A stretch of 64,000 bases of DNA, taken from contig CADAOF010000005.1 of NCBI GenBank assembly GCA_902789555.1, positions 62,001-126,000 of the forward strand, written 5' to 3'. The position numbers and the translations under genes are program-made. This stretch comes from an uncultured Lachnospiraceae bacterium (GTDB lineage Bacteria > Bacillota > Clostridia > Lachnospirales > Lachnospiraceae). Numbering within the stretch: position 1 is the first letter of the stretch; each line of letters opens with the position of its first letter. This document shows positions 2,887 to 52,953 of this stretch, one piece after another. The notes under the pieces are model-generated. The model was not told the DNA's origin. It searched no databases and saw nothing but the letters and a program-made list of their open reading frames with translations.

Positions 2887-2949
2887 GCGGGCATTCTCTC
2901 CCAATGTAAGTATCTGTATTATTATAACAACTGCTTACGTAAAAAGCAA

Positions 2950-2975
2950 GAAGGAAGGGTGCTCCCCCTTCCTTC
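2950..2975 (-). terminator. Rho-independent terminator of the reverse transcriptase / 115-residue gene unit
   Basis: Perfect 10-bp inverted repeat (GAAGGAAGGG at 2950-2959, CCCTTCCTTC at 2966-2975) with a 6-nt loop. On the minus strand it is followed by TTGCTTTTTA. It lies just after the stop of the 115-residue gene. Confidence 0.8.
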
Positions 2976-2995
2976 CCTTCCGTTTTGCGGCGGGC

Positions 2996-3343
2996 TCACG
3001 CTTCATATCTTACCCACTCACCGTCCCGAAGCGTTTCATACTCTCCCCACTTCGGTTTTCCGTCCGCACCGCGCTTCACCCGCAGCGGGATGAAGGCGTC
3101 GTGCTGGCAGCCCGGCAGGGGGTCACCGATCTCCGTCCAGCCGCTTTCATCAATCAGGGCGTTCCACTCTTCGCACGCTTCCTCCGCCGACGCATACAGG
3201 AGATCGGCGCAGCACTGCAGGGCATCCGCGGCATCATATTCAAAAAGATACGTTCCCTCTTCTGCCTCGTAAAGCATGATCCTGACGATCGGGTCTCCGT
3301 CTTCCCGCGGCAAAGGTTCCTTAAGATCCGCATATTTCCTCAT
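2996..3343 (-). CDS. conserved-looking 115-residue protein next to the reverse transcriptase
   Basis: Not recognised with certainty. The 115-residue, acidic, soluble protein starts MRKYADLKEPLPREDGDP and has an aromatic/acidic first half (EEGTYLFEYDAADALQ). The centre has paired cysteines (QCCADLL) and the end is compact (DAFIPLRVKR ... WGEYETLRDGEWV). No signal peptide or membrane segment. The start is fixed by a GGAGGAAA ribosome site 6 nt upstream. It follows the reverse transcriptase by about 50 bp (or about 20 bp if that gene's frame is restored, see findings) and precedes a strong terminator, so the two are probably one transcription unit. It could be an accessory protein of the RT or an unrelated housekeeping protein. 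Confidence 0.7.
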   Translation of the reverse strand: MRKYADLKEPLPREDGDPIVRIMLYEAEEGTYLFEYDAADALQCCADLLYASAEEACEEWNALIDESGWTEIGDPLPGCQHDAFIPLRVKRGADGKPKWGEYETLRDGEWVRYEA

Positions 3344-3392
3344 CGGTTTTTCCTCCGCCGGGCTTCACATCAGGAAGCGGGCGATTCCGGCG

Positions 3393-4697
3393 TCAACGAC
3401 ACGGATCTTGTTTCCGTGCACCTCTGCCTCGGTCCAGGCCGTTCTCCTTTTCCTTATCAGCCGGAGCGTCCTTCTTCCCGGCCGTACCGCCGGATAAGGC
3501 CTCCGCCCTGTAGGCATAGTAGGCATGGACCAGGTTCTGCCAGCCCATTTCCTTAATGGTCTCATAGCGCAGATTGAAGCGGGCCTTCGTGCGCTTTCCG
3601 GTCACGAGATAACGGATGCAGTCGAGTGCATAGGCGTCGATCGCTTCCAGGCTCTTCGTCGTATTGATGACGGAAAAGAACCAGGCGCTCCAGGTGAGAT
3701 CGTTATCTCCCGTATTTTCCAGCAGCTTGCTCCTGAAAATGCGGATGAAGGCCTTCGCCGCCTTCTCTCCCTCATGGCCGTTCCGGCGGCGCCAGCGGTC
3801 GAGGGCGCGCGTCTTCCGGCGCATCTTGGCCTTCAGTTTCGCGACAGTCACCGCTGCGATGTCGACCGTTCCCTCCCGGTAGGAAAAGCCGAGAAAGTTC
3901 CAGCCTTCTTCAGGGGCAAAAAGCTGTTCCTTGTCGGGATTGACCGTAAGGCCTGCCTCCGCAAGAAAGTTCCGGATCCTCTCCGCGCGGCGCAGCACTT
4001 CTTCCCGGCTGTCCGCAAAGACGATGATGTCGTCCGAGTAGCGGGCATAGGGGATGCCGTCCTGCGCGAAGGCTTCGTCCAGTTCCCTGAGATAAAGATT
4101 CGCGTAGAAGGAGGCGACGGGCGTTCCGGCCATGATGCCTTTTTCGTCCGTGACCGGCTGTCCGTTTTCCAGGACCTCCGGTTCCTCCAGAAGCCGCCGC
4201 AGGAAACGGAACAGTTCGGGATCGTCCGCAAGGACATTTTCCAGTTTCGGCAGGAACTGTCCGATCGGGACAGAGTTGAAATAGTTGTGGATATCGACCT
4301 TATACGCCCAGGCGGAACCGGCGTTCTTCATCCGGGTCAGGCGCCTTATCGCGTCCTTTGCCGAGCGGCCGGGGCGGAAGGAATACAGCCCGTCCGTAAA
4401 GAGATCGTCGTATTTTCTGAGAAGCAGCCAGGTCAGGAGCTTCATCACCGTATTTTCCGCCGGCGGATAGATATAAACGACGCGTTTTTTCCGGGAATGC
4501 ATCTTGCTGATGACCGCGCGCCTCGGCAGCGGAAAACGCCCTCCTGTCCGGATCAGTTCCGTGACGGGCAGAAAGGCTCGTTCCGCTATGAATCTCCGCA
4601 GTTCTTCCGTATCCGCCTTCGGGCAGGCCAGCGAAGTTCTGTAGGCGTAAAAAGCCTCCCAGACAGCCGGATCGGACAGTTTTTCCAAAAGGGACAT
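3393..4697 (-). CDS. stand-alone reverse transcriptase (group-II-like/unknown-group)
   Basis: RNA-directed DNA polymerase of 434 residues. In order: KKRVVYIYPP at about 71-80 (template/dNTP-binding region), YSFRPGRSAKDAI at 105-117, KVDIHNYFNSV at 133-143 with the first catalytic Asp, and GTPVASFYANLYLRELD at 191-207. The catalytic YSDD is at 220-223, NPDKEQ at 253-258, and NFLGF at 267-271, followed by a basic thumb-like region. There is no maturase X/HNH endonuclease domain and no flanking group II intron signature. Canonical retron RTs have a VTG motif where this one has FLGF; a VTG does occur at 365-367 but out of place. I start at 4697 because AAGGAGG lies just upstream; the frame stays open further upstream through the structured RNA region, which I treat as non-coding. 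The last 15 or so codons have unusual codon use, suggesting a frameshift. Immediately upstream is a structured RNA candidate, and the 115-residue gene follows. A defence or retron-like role is possible but not shown. Confidence 0.9.
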   Translation of the reverse strand: MSLLEKLSDPAVWEAFYAYRTSLACPKADTEELRRFIAERAFLPVTELIRTGGRFPLPRRAVISKMHSRKKRVVYIYPPAENTVMKLLTWLLLRKYDDLFTDGLYSFRPGRSAKDAIRRLTRMKNAGSAWAYKVDIHNYFNSVPIGQFLPKLENVLADDPELFRFLRRLLEEPEVLENGQPVTDEKGIMAGTPVASFYANLYLRELDEAFAQDGIPYARYSDDIIVFADSREEVLRRAERIRNFLAEAGLTVNPDKEQLFAPEEGWNFLGFSYREGTVDIAAVTVAKLKAKMRRKTRALDRWRRRNGHEGEKAAKAFIRIFRSKLLENTGDNDLTWSAWFFSVINTTKSLEAIDAYALDCIRYLVTGKRTKARFNLRYETIKEMGWQNLVHAYYAYRAEALSGGTAGKKDAPADKEKENGLDRGRGARKQDPCR

Positions 4698-4766
4698 GAC
4701 GCCCCTCCTTTTCCGCGCGCGCAGGTCTGAGTCCCGGCGCCCATGCGGTTTTCGGGTACGAAAAAA

Positions 4767-4895
4767 GCAGAAAGAGAAAGCATTAAAGCCCGGAAGATTC
4801 CGGGGTGTACCAGACCGTACACGGCTTAGCTGCCTGCGAAGCTTCATCAAAAGCCGTGCCGGGTCCGCCGCAGGCGCCGGGCATTCTCTTTCTGC
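4767..4895 (-). ncRNA. candidate structured RNA upstream of the reverse transcriptase, bounded by inverted repeats
   Basis: Between the 177-residue gene and the RT lies a 129-nt segment bounded by a perfect 12-bp inverted repeat. On the minus strand the 5' arm is at 4895-4884 and the 3' arm at 4778-4767 (GCAGAAAGAGAA / TTCTCTTTCTGC), followed inward by one mismatch and two more pairs. Inside are a stem at 4859-4880 (CCGG CGCC / GGCG CCGG), an 8-bp stem CACGGCTT/AAGCCGTG (4820-4827 with 4851-4858), GTGTAC/GTACAC (4805-4810 with 4817-4822, overlapping the previous stem by three bases) and CCCGGA/TCCGGG (4789-4804). A long-range inverted repeat enclosing hairpins directly before an RT matches the layout of retron msr-msd (a1/a2) and of other RT-associated template RNAs. 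That it is transcribed and reverse transcribed is inference. Confidence 0.55.
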
Positions 4896-4935
4896 ATGGA
4901 ACAGGGCCGAAGCCCCGGGGTTGCGGGTCATCCGA

Positions 4936-5469
4936 TCAGCGGTTCAGGGCCTCACGGATCTTTCCGATCACGTAGGTGCGGGGATTCCACCAGCCGATCT
5001 CACTGCAGTCCGTATAGAAGCGAAGGTAGGGGATGCCTTCCCGCAGTGTCTCGCGGCGCAGAGCCTGCGCTTCACATCTCTTCTTCATCAGTTCGACAAC
5101 AAGTTTTTTGCTTCCGCCCTGTGAGAAGGTGTAGATGTCAGAGGAATAATACTTCGGATGAGCCAGCAGGAAGCTGTATTCCGGGAATTCCTCCGTGAAG
5201 ATCTTTTCAAAGTATTCCTTGTAAGTCCCGTTGAACGAGAACTGGTTCTCATCCTTCGGCATGATCTCGCCCCACAGCGCGTCGGAGCGTTCCTGTTCCG
5301 GCTCCGCGACATGCGCTGAGGCCTCGGCAGGCTTTGCGGCAGCCGGCTTCGGAGAATCCTCCTTAAAGCCGTCCTTGATGCCGTCCCTGATCTTCTTCTC
5401 CGCATCGTTCAGCAGATCCTTGATCGCCGATTCTGTTTTCTTTCCAAATAATTGAGACAGTAAACCCAT
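4936..5469 (-). CDS. unknown 177-residue protein
   Basis: Function not recognised. The protein starts MGLLSQLFGKKTESAIKDLL, an amphipathic helix. An Ala/Pro/Glu-rich linker (about 45-65) and a folded C-terminal domain from about residue 70 follow, with many aromatic residues (FSFNGTYKEYFEKIF, PEYSFLLAHPKYYSSDIYTF, GWWNPRTYVIGKIREALNR). No signal peptide. The ATG at 5469 is chosen for its AAGGAG site 7 nt upstream; the more distal ATG adds only six residues without a ribosome site. A TTGCAA-16-TATAAT promoter lies upstream. It ends about 40 bp before the structured RNA of the RT region, so readthrough could supply that RNA. Confidence 0.75.
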   Translation of the reverse strand: MGLLSQLFGKKTESAIKDLLNDAEKKIRDGIKDGFKEDSPKPAAAKPAEASAHVAEPEQERSDALWGEIMPKDENQFSFNGTYKEYFEKIFTEEFPEYSFLLAHPKYYSSDIYTFSQGGSKKLVVELMKKRCEAQALRRETLREGIPYLRFYTDCSEIGWWNPRTYVIGKIREALNR

Positions 5470-5508
5470 GGCAGTACTCCTTTTCACCGACGGTTTATTC
5501 CTGACGTC

Positions 5509-5536
5509 ATTATACCGAAAGACTGTACTTTTGCAA
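5509..5536 (-). promoter_or_regulatory. promoter of the 177-residue gene
   Basis: On the minus strand TTGCAA (5531-5536) and TATAAT (5509-5514) are separated by 16 bp, about 40 bp before the ATG at 5469. Confidence 0.5.
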
Positions 5537-5566
5537 ATCTTTTTTTATTTTTTTAAGATAATTTCC

Positions 5567-6841
5567 TTATTCTTCCTCTTCAGCTTTCCGGTCCACATGG
5601 ATCTCGACCTGCTCGACCACGGGTCCCTGCACGGACATGACTTTCACGTGCAGGACGTCAAAATCGAACTCGTCACCGGCTTCGGGGAAGCGGTTCAGCT
5701 GCTCGGTCACCCAGCCGCTGACCGTCGTATACTCGCTTTCGAAATCTTTCGGTTCATACCCGATATACTCAAAAGCGTCTTCAATATTGAGGTCTCCCTC
5801 CACCAGGAAGGTGTCCTGGCTCAATTCTTTATAATCCTGCTCCACTTCGTCGGTCTCGTCGTATATCTCGCCAACGATCTCCTCCAGGATGTCCTCGGTC
5901 GTGAGGATGCCCATGGTGCCGCCGTATTCATCGAGGACCACGGCCATGTTGGTGCGGTTTTCCCGGAAATCGGCCAGGATCTCCTTCGCGGGCTTGGTCA
6001 TGTGCACGAAGACCGGCGGGACCAGCATGCCGGCGACGTCCACCGGCTCATCGAAAGTCAGGACGGCCTTCATTAACTGCTTGGTCGGCAGGATCCCGAT
6101 GATGTGGTCGATGCTTTCCCGGTAGACCGGTATGCGCGAGCAGCTCATGGCGTCCTGATCGGCCAGAAGGTCCTCCAGCGGATCGTCGATGTCATAGGCG
6201 ATCATGTCGACGCGCGGGATCAGGATGTCGCGGGCGGTGATGTCGGAAAAGCCGATGGCCGACTTGATCAGTTCGCCCTCGGATTCGCTGATGACGCCCT
6301 CTTCCTGAATGCTGTCCACGACCAGTTCGAGTTCCTCGTCCGTCATGTCCGGGATCTCTTCCTTCGGCGTCCAGAGCGGGGAAAGGAATTTCACGAAGCC
6401 GCTCACGACGGCGACCACGGGCCCAAACAGCTTCATGAAGAAGCGGAGCAGCCCCGCGCCGGAAAGGGTGAGCGAGTTGGCATGGTCCGCCGCCAGCAGC
6501 TTCGGGAAAATCTCGCCGAAGATCAGCAGCAGGAGCGTCGCGATACCGCTCGCGATCAGTTCCGCGCTCGCGTTATCCTTAAAGAAATAGCCGGTGCAGA
6601 GCAGCGTGACGACGGAAGTCGCCGCGATGTTCACGAGGTCGTTGCCCACCAGGATGGTAGAGATGGCGTGGACGTAGTCGTCGATGATCGACTGCGCCTT
6701 CACCGCTTTTTGATCGCCGTCTTCCGCAAGGGATTTGATGCGCGGCTTGCTCGCCTGCGCAAAAGCGATCTCAGTGGAGGAGAAAAAGGCGGATAGGGCG
6801 ATCAGGAAGACCACCAGAAGGATCAGCATGGGTACGTTCAT
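5567..6841 (-). CDS. CNNM/CorC-HlyC family membrane protein with CBS pair
   Basis: 424-residue hemolysin C/CorC-type protein. The N-terminal DUF21/CNNM membrane domain holds about four hydrophobic segments (MLILLVVFLIALSAFFSSTEIAFAQ first). A CBS-domain pair follows at about 205-330 (TARDILIPRVDMIAYD ... DILEEIVGEIYDE). A C-terminal CorC/HlyC domain ends FDFDVLHVKVMSVQG. Family members act in divalent cation (Mg2+/Co2+) export or homeostasis; haemolysis is a historical label. The start overlaps the stop of the next upstream paralogue by 4 bp (ATGA), so the two are translationally coupled and may form a heterodimer. The substrate cannot be told from sequence. Confidence 0.88.
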   Translation of the reverse strand: MNVPMLILLVVFLIALSAFFSSTEIAFAQASKPRIKSLAEDGDQKAVKAQSIIDDYVHAISTILVGNDLVNIAATSVVTLLCTGYFFKDNASAELIASGIATLLLLIFGEIFPKLLAADHANSLTLSGAGLLRFFMKLFGPVVAVVSGFVKFLSPLWTPKEEIPDMTDEELELVVDSIQEEGVISESEGELIKSAIGFSDITARDILIPRVDMIAYDIDDPLEDLLADQDAMSCSRIPVYRESIDHIIGILPTKQLMKAVLTFDEPVDVAGMLVPPVFVHMTKPAKEILADFRENRTNMAVVLDEYGGTMGILTTEDILEEIVGEIYDETDEVEQDYKELSQDTFLVEGDLNIEDAFEYIGYEPKDFESEYTTVSGWVTEQLNRFPEAGDEFDFDVLHVKVMSVQGPVVEQVEIHVDRKAEEEE

Positions 6842-8290: not shown

Positions 8291-8317
8291 TGTCATCCTG
8301 AGCGAAGCGAAGGATCT
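8291..8317. repeat. short dispersed repeat of the CATCCTGAGCGAAGCGAAGGATC type
   Basis: TGTCATCCTGAGCGAAGCG followed by AAGGATCT matches a short imperfect palindrome scattered through many bacterial genomes. Translated, it gives the well-known spurious VILSEAKDLL peptide. Recognised from general knowledge; it has no established function. Confidence 0.7.
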
Positions 8318-51195: not shown

Positions 51196-52953
51196 ATGAA
51201 CTATTCCCGACATTTCAGACTTGCTGCTCTGTTTCTTGCCCTTTCGCTGATGCTCAGCGCCTGCGGACCCGCGAAGCCTTCTACGACCGAAGCGCCCGAA
51301 ACGACGCTTCCCGAAACGACCGAAGTGCCGACCACTGCGGAGCCGACCACCGAGGAACCCACGACTGAGGAGCCGACTACCGAGGAACCTACTACCGAAG
51401 AGCCGACCACCGAAGAGCACCGTGAACCGCTTACCATCGAGGAACACACGCTCATCGATAAGGATAAGGTCAAGGTCGTGATCCGGGACTTCGTTGAAGA
51501 TGAAGAAGGAGCAGCGATCAATCTTTCCCTTTCGAACGGCACGGAGAAGAACATGGCTCTCTGCTGCACGTCCCTGGTCCTGAACGGCTACACGATGACC
51601 GAACCTGCCGGCATCCAGCTTGAGCCGAACAGCGAGGCCGACGCTGAACTTCGCATTGACCGCACTGCGACGGATGAACTCGGCATTACGGAGATCGGTT
51701 CCGTCATTGTCGACTATAAGGTCATCGATACCGATACCGGTGCGACGATCCTCGATCCCGATGCTTACGAGATCAAGACCTCCGCTTTCGAACGCATGGA
51801 AGACAGCAAAGATTGGGAAGGCCGGGAACTCTACAATGAGAACGACGCGCTGATCCTGCTGACGGACGTGACCGAGACCAGGACCGGCGGCACCTGCTTC
51901 AAGCTGTATGTCGAAAACAAGACGAAAAAGAACTTTGCCCTCGTCGGCGTGCAGGCCGTGGTCAACGGCCGCCGGGCAGACATTTCCTATCTCGGCATCG
52001 TCAATGCCGGCGGGAAGGCGCTGACCGACCTGATCGTGACGAAGACCGTCAAGGACAAGTTCGGGATCGGCGATGAGACAGACTCTCTGGAACTCAGTCT
52101 TGAAGCGCGCGACTGCAGCAGCTGGGATCTGCTGTTCGCGACCGGTGACATGTTCTGCGATCTCAGCGGAAACGCGCCGACCTTATCCGATGAGGCTGAA
52201 GCCGACACCGAATTCGTTCCCGAAAAGCTGCTCCTTGAAGACGATGCGCTTGCACTTACCTGCCTCGGCTGGCTCCCTGCCGACGGGCACGGCCCCGGCC
52301 TGAAGCTGCAGATCAGCAACAAGACCGACAAGGACATCCGCTTCCGTGTGGACGAGGTCATTGCCGACGATTACCTGATGAATAACTGCGGAATGATCGT
52401 CCCGGTCACCGCCGGCGGAACGGCTGACGCCGCGCTGTATCTTGATCAGGAAGTCCTGAACCTTACGGGCAATACTGAGATCGGCACCGTCGTCCTTAAC
52501 TGCTCGCTGCAGGACGGCGAGACGCATAAAGTACTGAAATCCCTTGCGGCAGTCACCGTGGAGACCGCCGCCAAGGAACGCGTCAAAGTTGCCGATTCCG
52601 CGAAAGGAAAGACGATCTGCAACGAAAAGAAACTGCAGATCGTGGCGATCGCCTACACCGGTTACAGCGAAACGATCGGCGAACGCCTCTATCTGTGGGT
52701 GAAGAACAGTTCCGACAAGACGATGGTGCTGGAGCCGATTTATACGAAGGTCAACGGGTCCTACATGCTCGGGATCGGAAAGCTGACAGTTCCGCCCGGA
52801 AAAATGACGATCGGGACGTACACGGTTCCCGCGCGCGAAACCGCGCGGCACGGCCTCGCAGAGTTCCGCAGCATGATCATGAACACGCTGGTCTATGATA
52901 CCGCCGGCAAACTGCAGTTCACGACACTGTTCGGCGGGATCGAAATCAAATAA
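51196..52953 (+). CDS. 585-residue lipoprotein with Thr/Glu/Pro repeat linker
   Basis: Start at 51196 chosen for the CAGGAGGAG site. The lipoprotein signal is MNYSRHFRLAALFLALSLML followed by SAC with Cys23 in the lipobox. A low-complexity linker from about 30 to 75 consists of TTEEP-type repeats (TEEPTTEEPTTEEP and variants), probably spanning the cell wall. The rest contains about four related beta-sandwich-like units. Each has a segment like LYVENKTKKNFALVGVQAVVNGR or LQISNKTDKDIRFRVDEVIAD and a later aggregate such as GGKALTDLIVTKTVKDKFGI, so the protein is an internal tandem repeat. Surface-anchored; function unknown. Confidence 0.85.
   Translation: MNYSRHFRLAALFLALSLMLSACGPAKPSTTEAPETTLPETTEVPTTAEPTTEEPTTEEPTTEEPTTEEPTTEEHREPLTIEEHTLIDKDKVKVVIRDFVEDEEGAAINLSLSNGTEKNMALCCTSLVLNGYTMTEPAGIQLEPNSEADAELRIDRTATDELGITEIGSVIVDYKVIDTDTGATILDPDAYEIKTSAFERMEDSKDWEGRELYNENDALILLTDVTETRTGGTCFKLYVENKTKKNFALVGVQAVVNGRRADISYLGIVNAGGKALTDLIVTKTVKDKFGIGDETDSLELSLEARDCSSWDLLFATGDMFCDLSGNAPTLSDEAEADTEFVPEKLLLEDDALALTCLGWLPADGHGPGLKLQISNKTDKDIRFRVDEVIADDYLMNNCGMIVPVTAGGTADAALYLDQEVLNLTGNTEIGTVVLNCSLQDGETHKVLKSLAAVTVETAAKERVKVADSAKGKTICNEKKLQIVAIAYTGYSETIGERLYLWVKNSSDKTMVLEPIYTKVNGSYMLGIGKLTVPPGKMTIGTYTVPARETARHGLAEFRSMIMNTLVYDTAGKLQFTTLFGGIEIK

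Follow-up and report, generated by a model that had tools for sequence, protein, structure and literature searches.

A UG26 reverse transcriptase encoded beside an RT-5 RNA and a partner protein in a Lachnospiraceae genome

In the class 2 defence-associated reverse transcriptases (DRT) DRT2 (PMC12039810), DRT9 (PMC12483538), DRT3a (PMC13174585) and DRT10 (PMC12632851), a short part of a dedicated RNA is described as being copied repeatedly. The template of DRT10 is reported to have the form A-B-A' and to have to lie 3' of a stable stem-loop (PMC12632851), and a parallel with telomerase is drawn for DRT10 in the same article and for DRT2 in PMC12039810. We describe here a locus of an uncultured Lachnospiraceae bacterium, in which a reverse transcriptase (RT) of unknown group (UG) 26 is encoded with a structured non-coding RNA (ncRNA) of the Rfam family RT-5 and with a partner protein of the PADLOC family RTasCOG2852. 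The locus lies in a stretch of 64,000 nucleotides (assembly GCA_902789555.1, contig CADAOF010000005.1, positions 62,001 to 126,000), called the window below. UG26 is named as an RT group in PMC10504277, in the context of classification only. No functional study of UG26 or RT-5 was found in the literature searched, as judged by title and with supplements not covered. RT-5 and UG26 were probably first described by Weinberg et al. in 2017 and Mestre et al. in 2022. The present analysis joins RT-5, UG26 and RTasCOG2852 into one co-diverging unit and adds a pseudoknot and an outer helix to the RNA model; neither the triad nor the pseudoknot nor the near-core status of the unit was found in print, as far as the literature was searched.

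The locus resembles DRT10, a UG17 system, in having an RT, a structured ncRNA and one accessory protein, with a candidate template directly 3' of a stem-loop as described in PMC12632851. It differs from it in that the partner belongs, by model match, to another family than SLATT, the UG17 model scores far below UG26 on this RT (95.9 against 564.8 bits), an A-B-A' pattern is weakly supported, and no conserved C-terminal priming residue was identified. DRT9 (UG28) and DRT2 (UG2), both described as ncRNA-templated (PMC12483538, PMC12039810), are among the fold matches of the RT. The DRT2 RNA is pseudoknotted too and measures 280 nt in that account (PMC12039810), against about 130 nt here; the conserved poly-U template loop described for DRT9 (PMC12483538) is lacking in the present RNA.

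Parts of the locus and their association

The partner gene, the RNA and the RT gene follow one another on the minus strand, and all three match catalogue entries (PADLOC RTasCOG2852, Rfam RT-5 and PADLOC RT_UG26). Their features in the window are the following:

3393-4697, minus strand: UG26 reverse transcriptase, 434 amino acids (aa) from an ATG at 4697 (PADLOC RT_UG26, Pfam RVT_1)
4767-4895, minus strand: RT-5 RNA including the outer helix (Rfam RF03026 plus the outer arms); this is the whole span of the inverted repeat, and the true RNA ends may differ
4936-5487, minus strand: partner gene RTasCOG2852, 183 aa from a GTG, or 177 aa from an ATG at 5469
5509-5537, minus strand: promoter-like site TTTGCA-17-TATAAT, 5' of the partner gene (consensus scan, 10 of 12)
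4761-4766, minus strand: run of six T right after the 3' arm of the outer helix, a terminator-like end (read from the sequence)

In the direction of transcription, the promoter-like site is followed by the partner gene, 40 nt, the RNA (129 nt), the six T, 63 nt and the RT gene. Three promoter-like sites were present in the region, two of them overlapping at 5509-5537, compared to 0.9 ± 0.9 in shuffled sequences; such a consensus match is no evidence of function.

The association between the RNA and the RT was very regular. A sample of 200 genomes from Lachnospiraceae, the family of the window, contained 23 with a strong UG26 RT (at least 381 bits, the next match reaching 139.5). Of these 23 genomes, 22 also had RT-5, 21 of them with a score over the cut-off; the remaining 177 genomes had no RT-5. 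The sole strong-UG26 genome devoid of RT-5 (G193) carries a remote RT, L043. Among 19 relatives from named genomes, RT-5 was located upstream of the RT in 18, the remaining locus (L015) having 65 nt only before the RT. At locus L017 the RNA stays beside the partner gene, and a trkA-like and a trkH-like gene, recognized by eye, separate both from the RT; RNA and RT are naturally set apart here by this pair (L017:1064-3891). The distances between RTs and between RNAs were correlated (Mantel r of 0.85 over 35 loci, 0.74 over 23 loci without Bacteroidales), as were those between RTs and between partners (0.91 over 27 loci, 0.85 over 16 without Bacteroidales), and none of 5000 permutations was as high in any of the four comparisons; in one pair, from genome G089, RT and RNA come from separate contigs. 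These correlations indicate that RT, RNA and partner co-diverge. A dedicated ncRNA with conserved structure, travelling with the RT as in class 2 DRT systems, is found here.

The RT scored 564.8 bits with RT_UG26 (2e-170, over positions 1-397 of 398), the next model reaching 134.4 bits. The motifs YSDD and FLGF are located at residues 220-223 and 268-271, respectively. By sequence and fold the protein was closest to group II intron RTs: when its AlphaFold model (predicted local distance difference test, pLDDT, of 89.3) was used in a fold search, the best matches by E-value were the group II intron RT GsI-IIC, G2L4, another group II RT and DRT9. Such model scores and fold ranks are the basis for placing this RT among the UG classes. 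A group II intron maturase was rejected, as the model TIGR04416 remained below its cut-off (132.1 bits for 300) and RVT_1 (2.8e-25) was the sole Pfam match; an earlier note on this DNA, made from the letters, had described a YSDD RT without a maturase domain, and this was borne out. Twelve other RT loci that were inspected had YADD and were, by eye, of the group II intron type. A diversity-generating retroelement was rejected because no long direct repeat was present near the RT. The longest direct repeat in 3000-5600 was 29 nt at 76%, among 20 of 36 repeat families shown, and no repeat of at least 35 nt involved the RT region within the window, which holds just 3.4 kb downstream of the RT.

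The same note had considered a retron-like or unknown-group system. In a retron, the inverted repeat would be the a1/a2 pair and the RNA the msr-msd, with a branched RNA-DNA product, and the 12-bp terminal inverted repeat that closes a structured RNA upstream of the RT is indeed a likeness. The motifs NAxxH and VTG are the marks of retron RTs. NAxxH was found in none of 36 aligned RTs (the alignment leaves out L003, L009, L010, L011, L015 and L042, the match in L042 being in two pieces), and region Y contains [FY]LG in 35 of the 36, VTG strings occurring elsewhere in five. The only matching retron model, St85, gave 39.2 bits for a cut-off of 235, retron structures ranked below group II, G2L4, DRT9 and DRT2 in the fold search, and RT-5 was the sole Rfam match at the RNA. 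On motifs, model score and fold rank the retron reading was rejected, and we consider it very improbable. Of the earlier proposal, the unknown group stands, with the RT_UG26 score and a dedicated covarying RNA, and the retron likeness falls; the observation that FLGF replaces VTG, which makes this no canonical retron, was correct.

The partner of the window matched RTasCOG2852 at 4.4e-47 over positions 1-166 of 167. A member of this family was located upstream, on the same strand, at 36 of 41 evaluable RNAs, L071 being at a contig end and not evaluable. The total is the sum of the partners recovered by a leave-out profile (35 of 35, at E 6.7e-9 or better, among 2720 open reading frames, ORFs) and of the L052 partner, which came in with the full profile. 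The leave-out took away the whole near group in the case of L001-L003 and the Bacteroidales loci, and elsewhere only the sequence itself. Over the 2720 ORFs of the loci, the full profile had no match outside the known partner places. A partner search of 19 genomes, including the five without a partner beside the RNA, found none, which shows little since no genome known to have the partner was included. In a set of 30 partners (L003, L009-L012 and L052 left out), the PADLOC model matched 20 at E 0.01, and no Pfam family matched more than one partner or was better than E 0.009. One of the 30, taken from its sequence as L004:3162-3806, showed a GTP_EFTU_D2 match at E 0.016. The predicted fold is a helix, three strands, a helix, a strand and a helix (pLDDT 78.5), an element order which we take to be that of the PD-(D/E)XK nuclease fold. 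The fold search gave no significant match (best E 0.085, with STING; EndoMS at E 0.13) and no column was invariant among the 30 sequences, so that an active nuclease is unsupported. The earlier note had instead counted a 115-residue gene downstream of the RT as a member of the unit. This gene had no match in the fetched stretches of 15 genus relatives and was rejected as third member; the conserved partner is the 183-aa gene upstream.

Structure of the RT-5 RNA

The RNA matched RF03026 in full length (98.9 bits for a gathering score of 45.7) at positions 4775-4879. The perfect 12-bp inverted repeat 4767-4778 / 4884-4895, pointed out in the earlier note as closing the 129 nt, was confirmed, and a repeat search gave 15 nt at 93% complementarity. 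The folding energy of the RNA strand over 4755-4900 was -61.4 kcal/mol, compared to -46.0 ± 4.0 in 200 shuffles (z -3.87, none as low). That note had also placed four hairpins inside the repeat. The region is indeed a structured RNA, but an RT-5 RNA with an added pseudoknot and outer helix rather than plain hairpins. The elements of this model are listed here, with the share of paired cells in an alignment of 42 RNAs, aligned on sequence only:

4884-4895, minus strand: 5' arm of the outer helix P1, perfect complement of 4767-4778
4870-4875, minus strand: 5' strand of the pseudoknot PA, GCCUGC, pairing with 4832-4837
4812-4866, minus strand: long hairpin PB+PC+PD (pairing counts)
4862-4866 with 4812-4816, minus strand: PB, 90.0% paired
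4851-4858 with 4820-4827, minus strand: PC, 93.1% paired
4840-4843 with 4828-4831, minus strand: PD, 93.5% paired
4832-4837, minus strand: 3' strand of PA, GCAGGC, in the PD hairpin loop, pairing with 4870-4875
4789-4805, minus strand: hairpin P5, approximate ends, directly 5' of the candidate template (Rfam consensus line and fold)
4777-4789, minus strand: candidate A-B-A' template, GCUUUAAU (4789-4782) then GCUUU (4781-4777), a hypothesis only
4767-4778, minus strand: 3' arm of P1, perfect complement of 4884-4895

The 6-bp pseudoknot PA was the most constant element: 252 of 252 cells were paired, and all six pairs covaried with double changes. In PB, PC and PD, double changes were seen in 15 of 17 pairs, the weakest pair being the innermost of PB, which was unpaired in 18 of the 42 RNAs. 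Taken together, the four helices were paired in 94.3% of 964 cells, compared to 72.3% in shuffles, which keep the relatedness of the sequences, and to 32-39% with slid partners. The covariation score was 0.707 (0.269 in shuffles, 0.08-0.16 with slid partners), with double changes in 21 of 23 pairs; the helices were picked by eye in the same alignment, so that these counts come from the data from which the model was drawn. For P1, the best duplex of the flanks had a mean energy, over 42 RNAs, of -25.4 kcal/mol for own flanks, -17.7 for foreign and -14.9 for shuffled ones; the median RNA had 7% of foreign flanks pairing as well as its own. This covariation among homologues, and the retention of the structure and of its closing arms, agree with the earlier note's view of a structured upstream RNA. 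In the consensus line of Rfam RT-5, which has the long hairpin and P5, the PA bases are unpaired and the ends fall within the outer helix. PA and P1 are additions to the Rfam model. In the RNAs at L073:1501-1642 and L062:1501-1621, PC and PD are separated by long insertions.

The reading frame of the RT in the window continues without a stop across the RNA region (an ORF of 512 aa). Among 41 homologous loci, which include the window's genome as L001 and leave out L017, this frame was closed across the RNA in 34 and open in five (L001, L013, L014, L018 and L067); L020 was borderline, and L055, where the RT is cut, undecidable. The region is therefore no conserved coding region, and a coding sequence was rejected in place of the RNA.

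The RNA might also be a cis-acting leader or attenuator, which would control the expression of the RT gene and serve neither as template nor as cofactor. Its location upstream of the RT and its terminator-like end would fit such a role. The arm pair is terminator-like because the six T (4766-4761) directly follow the 3' arm; it was not among the sites of a terminator scan, which takes loops of 8 at most. At L017, however, the RNA is 3 kb away from the RT, beyond two other genes. The pseudoknot is kept in 42 of 42 RNAs and the RNA co-diverges with the RT, although linkage alone could produce the latter, and the RNAs beside the studied class 2 DRTs are described as templates (PMC12483538, PMC12039810, PMC12632851). 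A leader appears quite unlikely to us.

Distribution and neighbourhood of the unit

In the window's genus, the RT, RT-5 and the partner were each found in 16 of 16 sampled genomes, none counted twice (locus L108 is apparently L005). The RTs of the 15 others were 59-88% identical to that of the window; six of the 16 genomes have one stop codon within the RT match, and even there the open frame measures at least 402 aa. In a second genus, RT-5 was present in 18 of 22 genomes. As the unit is near-core in two genera, a cellular role is a serious rival to phage defence: a domesticated housekeeping RT would form the same ribonucleoprotein but act in the cell's own affairs, be it DNA repair, gene regulation or stress, and not against phages. 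Above the genus the distribution is patchy, which argues against it, with 22 of 200 genomes in the family, 2 of 398 in a phylum-wide sample (both of the window's family) and 10 of 61 in a Bacteroidales genus (9 over the cut-off). In the RT tree, whose midpoint root lies near the long branch of L043, the 12 Bacteroidales RTs are on one side of a fully supported branch and nested among the others if rooted there.

The neighbourhood bears on the same question. Conserved synteny, involving rfbA, rfbB and two corC-like genes, was seen in full for the window, G600, G604 and G609 and partially for G601, where the contig is short. It speaks for a housekeeping role, and inheritance in place is the simplest reading for the four syntenic comparisons; against this role, the fetched stretches of 11 of the other 15 genomes of the genus did not show the synteny. 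In G609, orf52 and the zinc-ribbon TPR gene, otherwise syntenic, are set apart from the RT by several kilobases of other ORFs (L134:9065-13652). A scan for defence and Pfam families covered 85 of the 112 ORFs listed for 12 loci of the genus, some of which may be spurious. The defence library gave just a few matches at E 1e-10 (RTasCOG2852, two; mad3, two; E1-E2 models, one member each), so that no defence island is apparent, and the Pfam families of the neighbours, 25 shown of 55, were mostly metabolic or transport families. Both observations favour a housekeeping role, as does the finding that the matches in plasmids (best 5000 records) and phages (42 records) were all below 60% identity.

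A first scan of viral contigs gave no match. A profile scan gave four loci, three of which (L136, L137 and L138) showed 31-32% identity; RT-5 was absent from the stretches covered at these loci. These UG26-like viral RTs are located at L136:237-1412, L137:55-1230 and L138:2189-3373, and may use another RNA or none. A PhotoRC-II match in L137 was below the gathering score and taken as chance.

In the four syntenic comparisons, the ratio of nonsynonymous to synonymous substitution rates (dN/dS) was 0.14-0.23 for the RT and 0.13-0.20 for the partner, which points to purifying selection on both genes. The ratio was 0.03-0.08 for corC1, corC2 and rfbA and 0.12-0.17 for the TPR gene. The dS of the RT was somewhat above that of the neighbours, and the partner dS was high in one comparison (1.13, G600). 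With a dN of 0.07-0.26, RT and partner evolve faster than corC1, corC2 and rfbA (0.009-0.06), as is often the case for defence genes and at odds with a housekeeping role; the TPR neighbour is fast too, with a dN of 0.22 compared to 0.17 for the RT in G604. Taking both sides together, we hold a housekeeping role to be possible but somewhat doubtful.

Proposed mechanism and candidate template

We propose that the three parts probably form a ribonucleoprotein unit of a class 2 DRT-like design, in which the RT would bind the RNA and copy a short stretch of it into DNA. In this model, one transcript would start at the promoter-like site 5537-5509, run through the partner gene and into the RNA, and the RNA would terminate at the terminator-like outer helix and U run. 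The RT would be expressed via read-through or from its own start. The pseudoknotted core of the RNA would be the part bound by the RT, and the template would be the short single-stranded stretch between P5 and the 3' arm of P1. RNA-templated DNA synthesis is likely by analogy with the studied systems. The partner may regulate the RT or handle the DNA product. More speculatively, the unit could serve phage defence, and the RT could, like DRT10 and telomerase, realign on the template in A-B-A' fashion and copy it again and again to produce (ATTAAAGC)n DNA.

Several observations weigh against this model. The partner is absent beside 5 of the 41 RNAs (L054, L058, L059, L065 and L067), where other genes are found. 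The remote relative L043 is without RT-5, and so are the viral relatives L136-L138, L136 and L137 having less than 250 nt before the RT. The family-wide RT-5 search was run with stricter filters, by which some weak matches were lost. The RT shows no invariant Tyr or Ser at its extreme C-terminus, as in priming of the DRT9 or DRT10 style; the sole invariant tyrosine C-terminal to the palm in the RT alignment is Y378.

The candidate template of the window reads GCUUU-AAU-GCUUU. Its first bases lie in the foot of P5 and its last ones in the 3' arm of P1. The loop between PC and PD was also considered as a possible template, on the basis of its sequences in the RNAs, and was set aside. In the 42 RNAs, the AA of this site 3' of P5 is invariant and the first U nearly so. 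The A-B-A' repeat score was highest at the candidate site (3.33 for a mean of 1.59). When left and right parts were exchanged between RNAs of one group (groups made by eye, kinship ignored), the p value was 0.012 for 33 RNAs; it was 0.0097 for the 10 RNAs of type I, the type of the window, and 0.099 for 15 of type II. The mean match length gave p 0.00135 for the 42 RNAs and p 0.026 for 33 representatives. In the genus, GAUUU is present on both sides in L093, L095, L097, L098 and L099. Other points speak against the pattern. The 8 Bacteroidales RNAs showed no A-B-A' signal (p 1.0), neighbouring U/C-rich columns reach a repeat score of 3.0, and the fraction of RNAs with at least four matches gave p 0.056 (42 RNAs) and p 0.37 (33). 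Of the genus loci, L087, L088, L091 and L092 do not keep the match, in a comparison that leaves out L100. In addition, A' overlaps the paired P1 arm, and the pattern was noticed in the same data that tested it. The A-B-A' template, with ATTAAAGC as the predicted cDNA repeat, is thus a weak candidate and limited to one clade.

The telomerase RNA core has a closing helix. The present RNA resembles this core, as a resemblance only, in its pseudoknot and in the stem-loop 5' of the candidate template, a possible template boundary. It differs in that the pseudoknot lies 5' of the candidate template, and group II intron RTs are the closest to this RT in sequence and fold. A telomerase-like, genus-wide RT, whose RNA with closing helix, pseudoknot and boundary stem-loop would template tandem repeats via A-B-A' for a standing cellular function and not for sporadic defence, seems unlikely. 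If it were true, (ATTAAAGC)n would be expected in the window's species and (ATTAAATC)n in the L093 group. These repeats are exact predictions of the DNA that an RT of this group would make; no functional study of the group was found in the literature searched. Because the unit is kept in all sampled genomes of the genus, it offers a test case for standing cellular roles of bacterial ncRNA-dependent RTs, beside the link between DRTs and telomerase proposed in PMC12632851.

Three other sites of the window may be mentioned. An Rfam match to PrrB_RsmZ at 2945-3089 was below the gathering score and taken as chance. At 8292-8316, the window contains a single exact copy of GTCATCCTGAGCGAAGCGAAGGATC, for which zero copies are expected by chance and which we take to be a motif occurring in many unrelated bacterial genomes. 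Positions 51316-51416 are made of overlapping repeat copies with a spacing of 15 nt, which by eye would be rich in Thr, Glu and Pro if coding.

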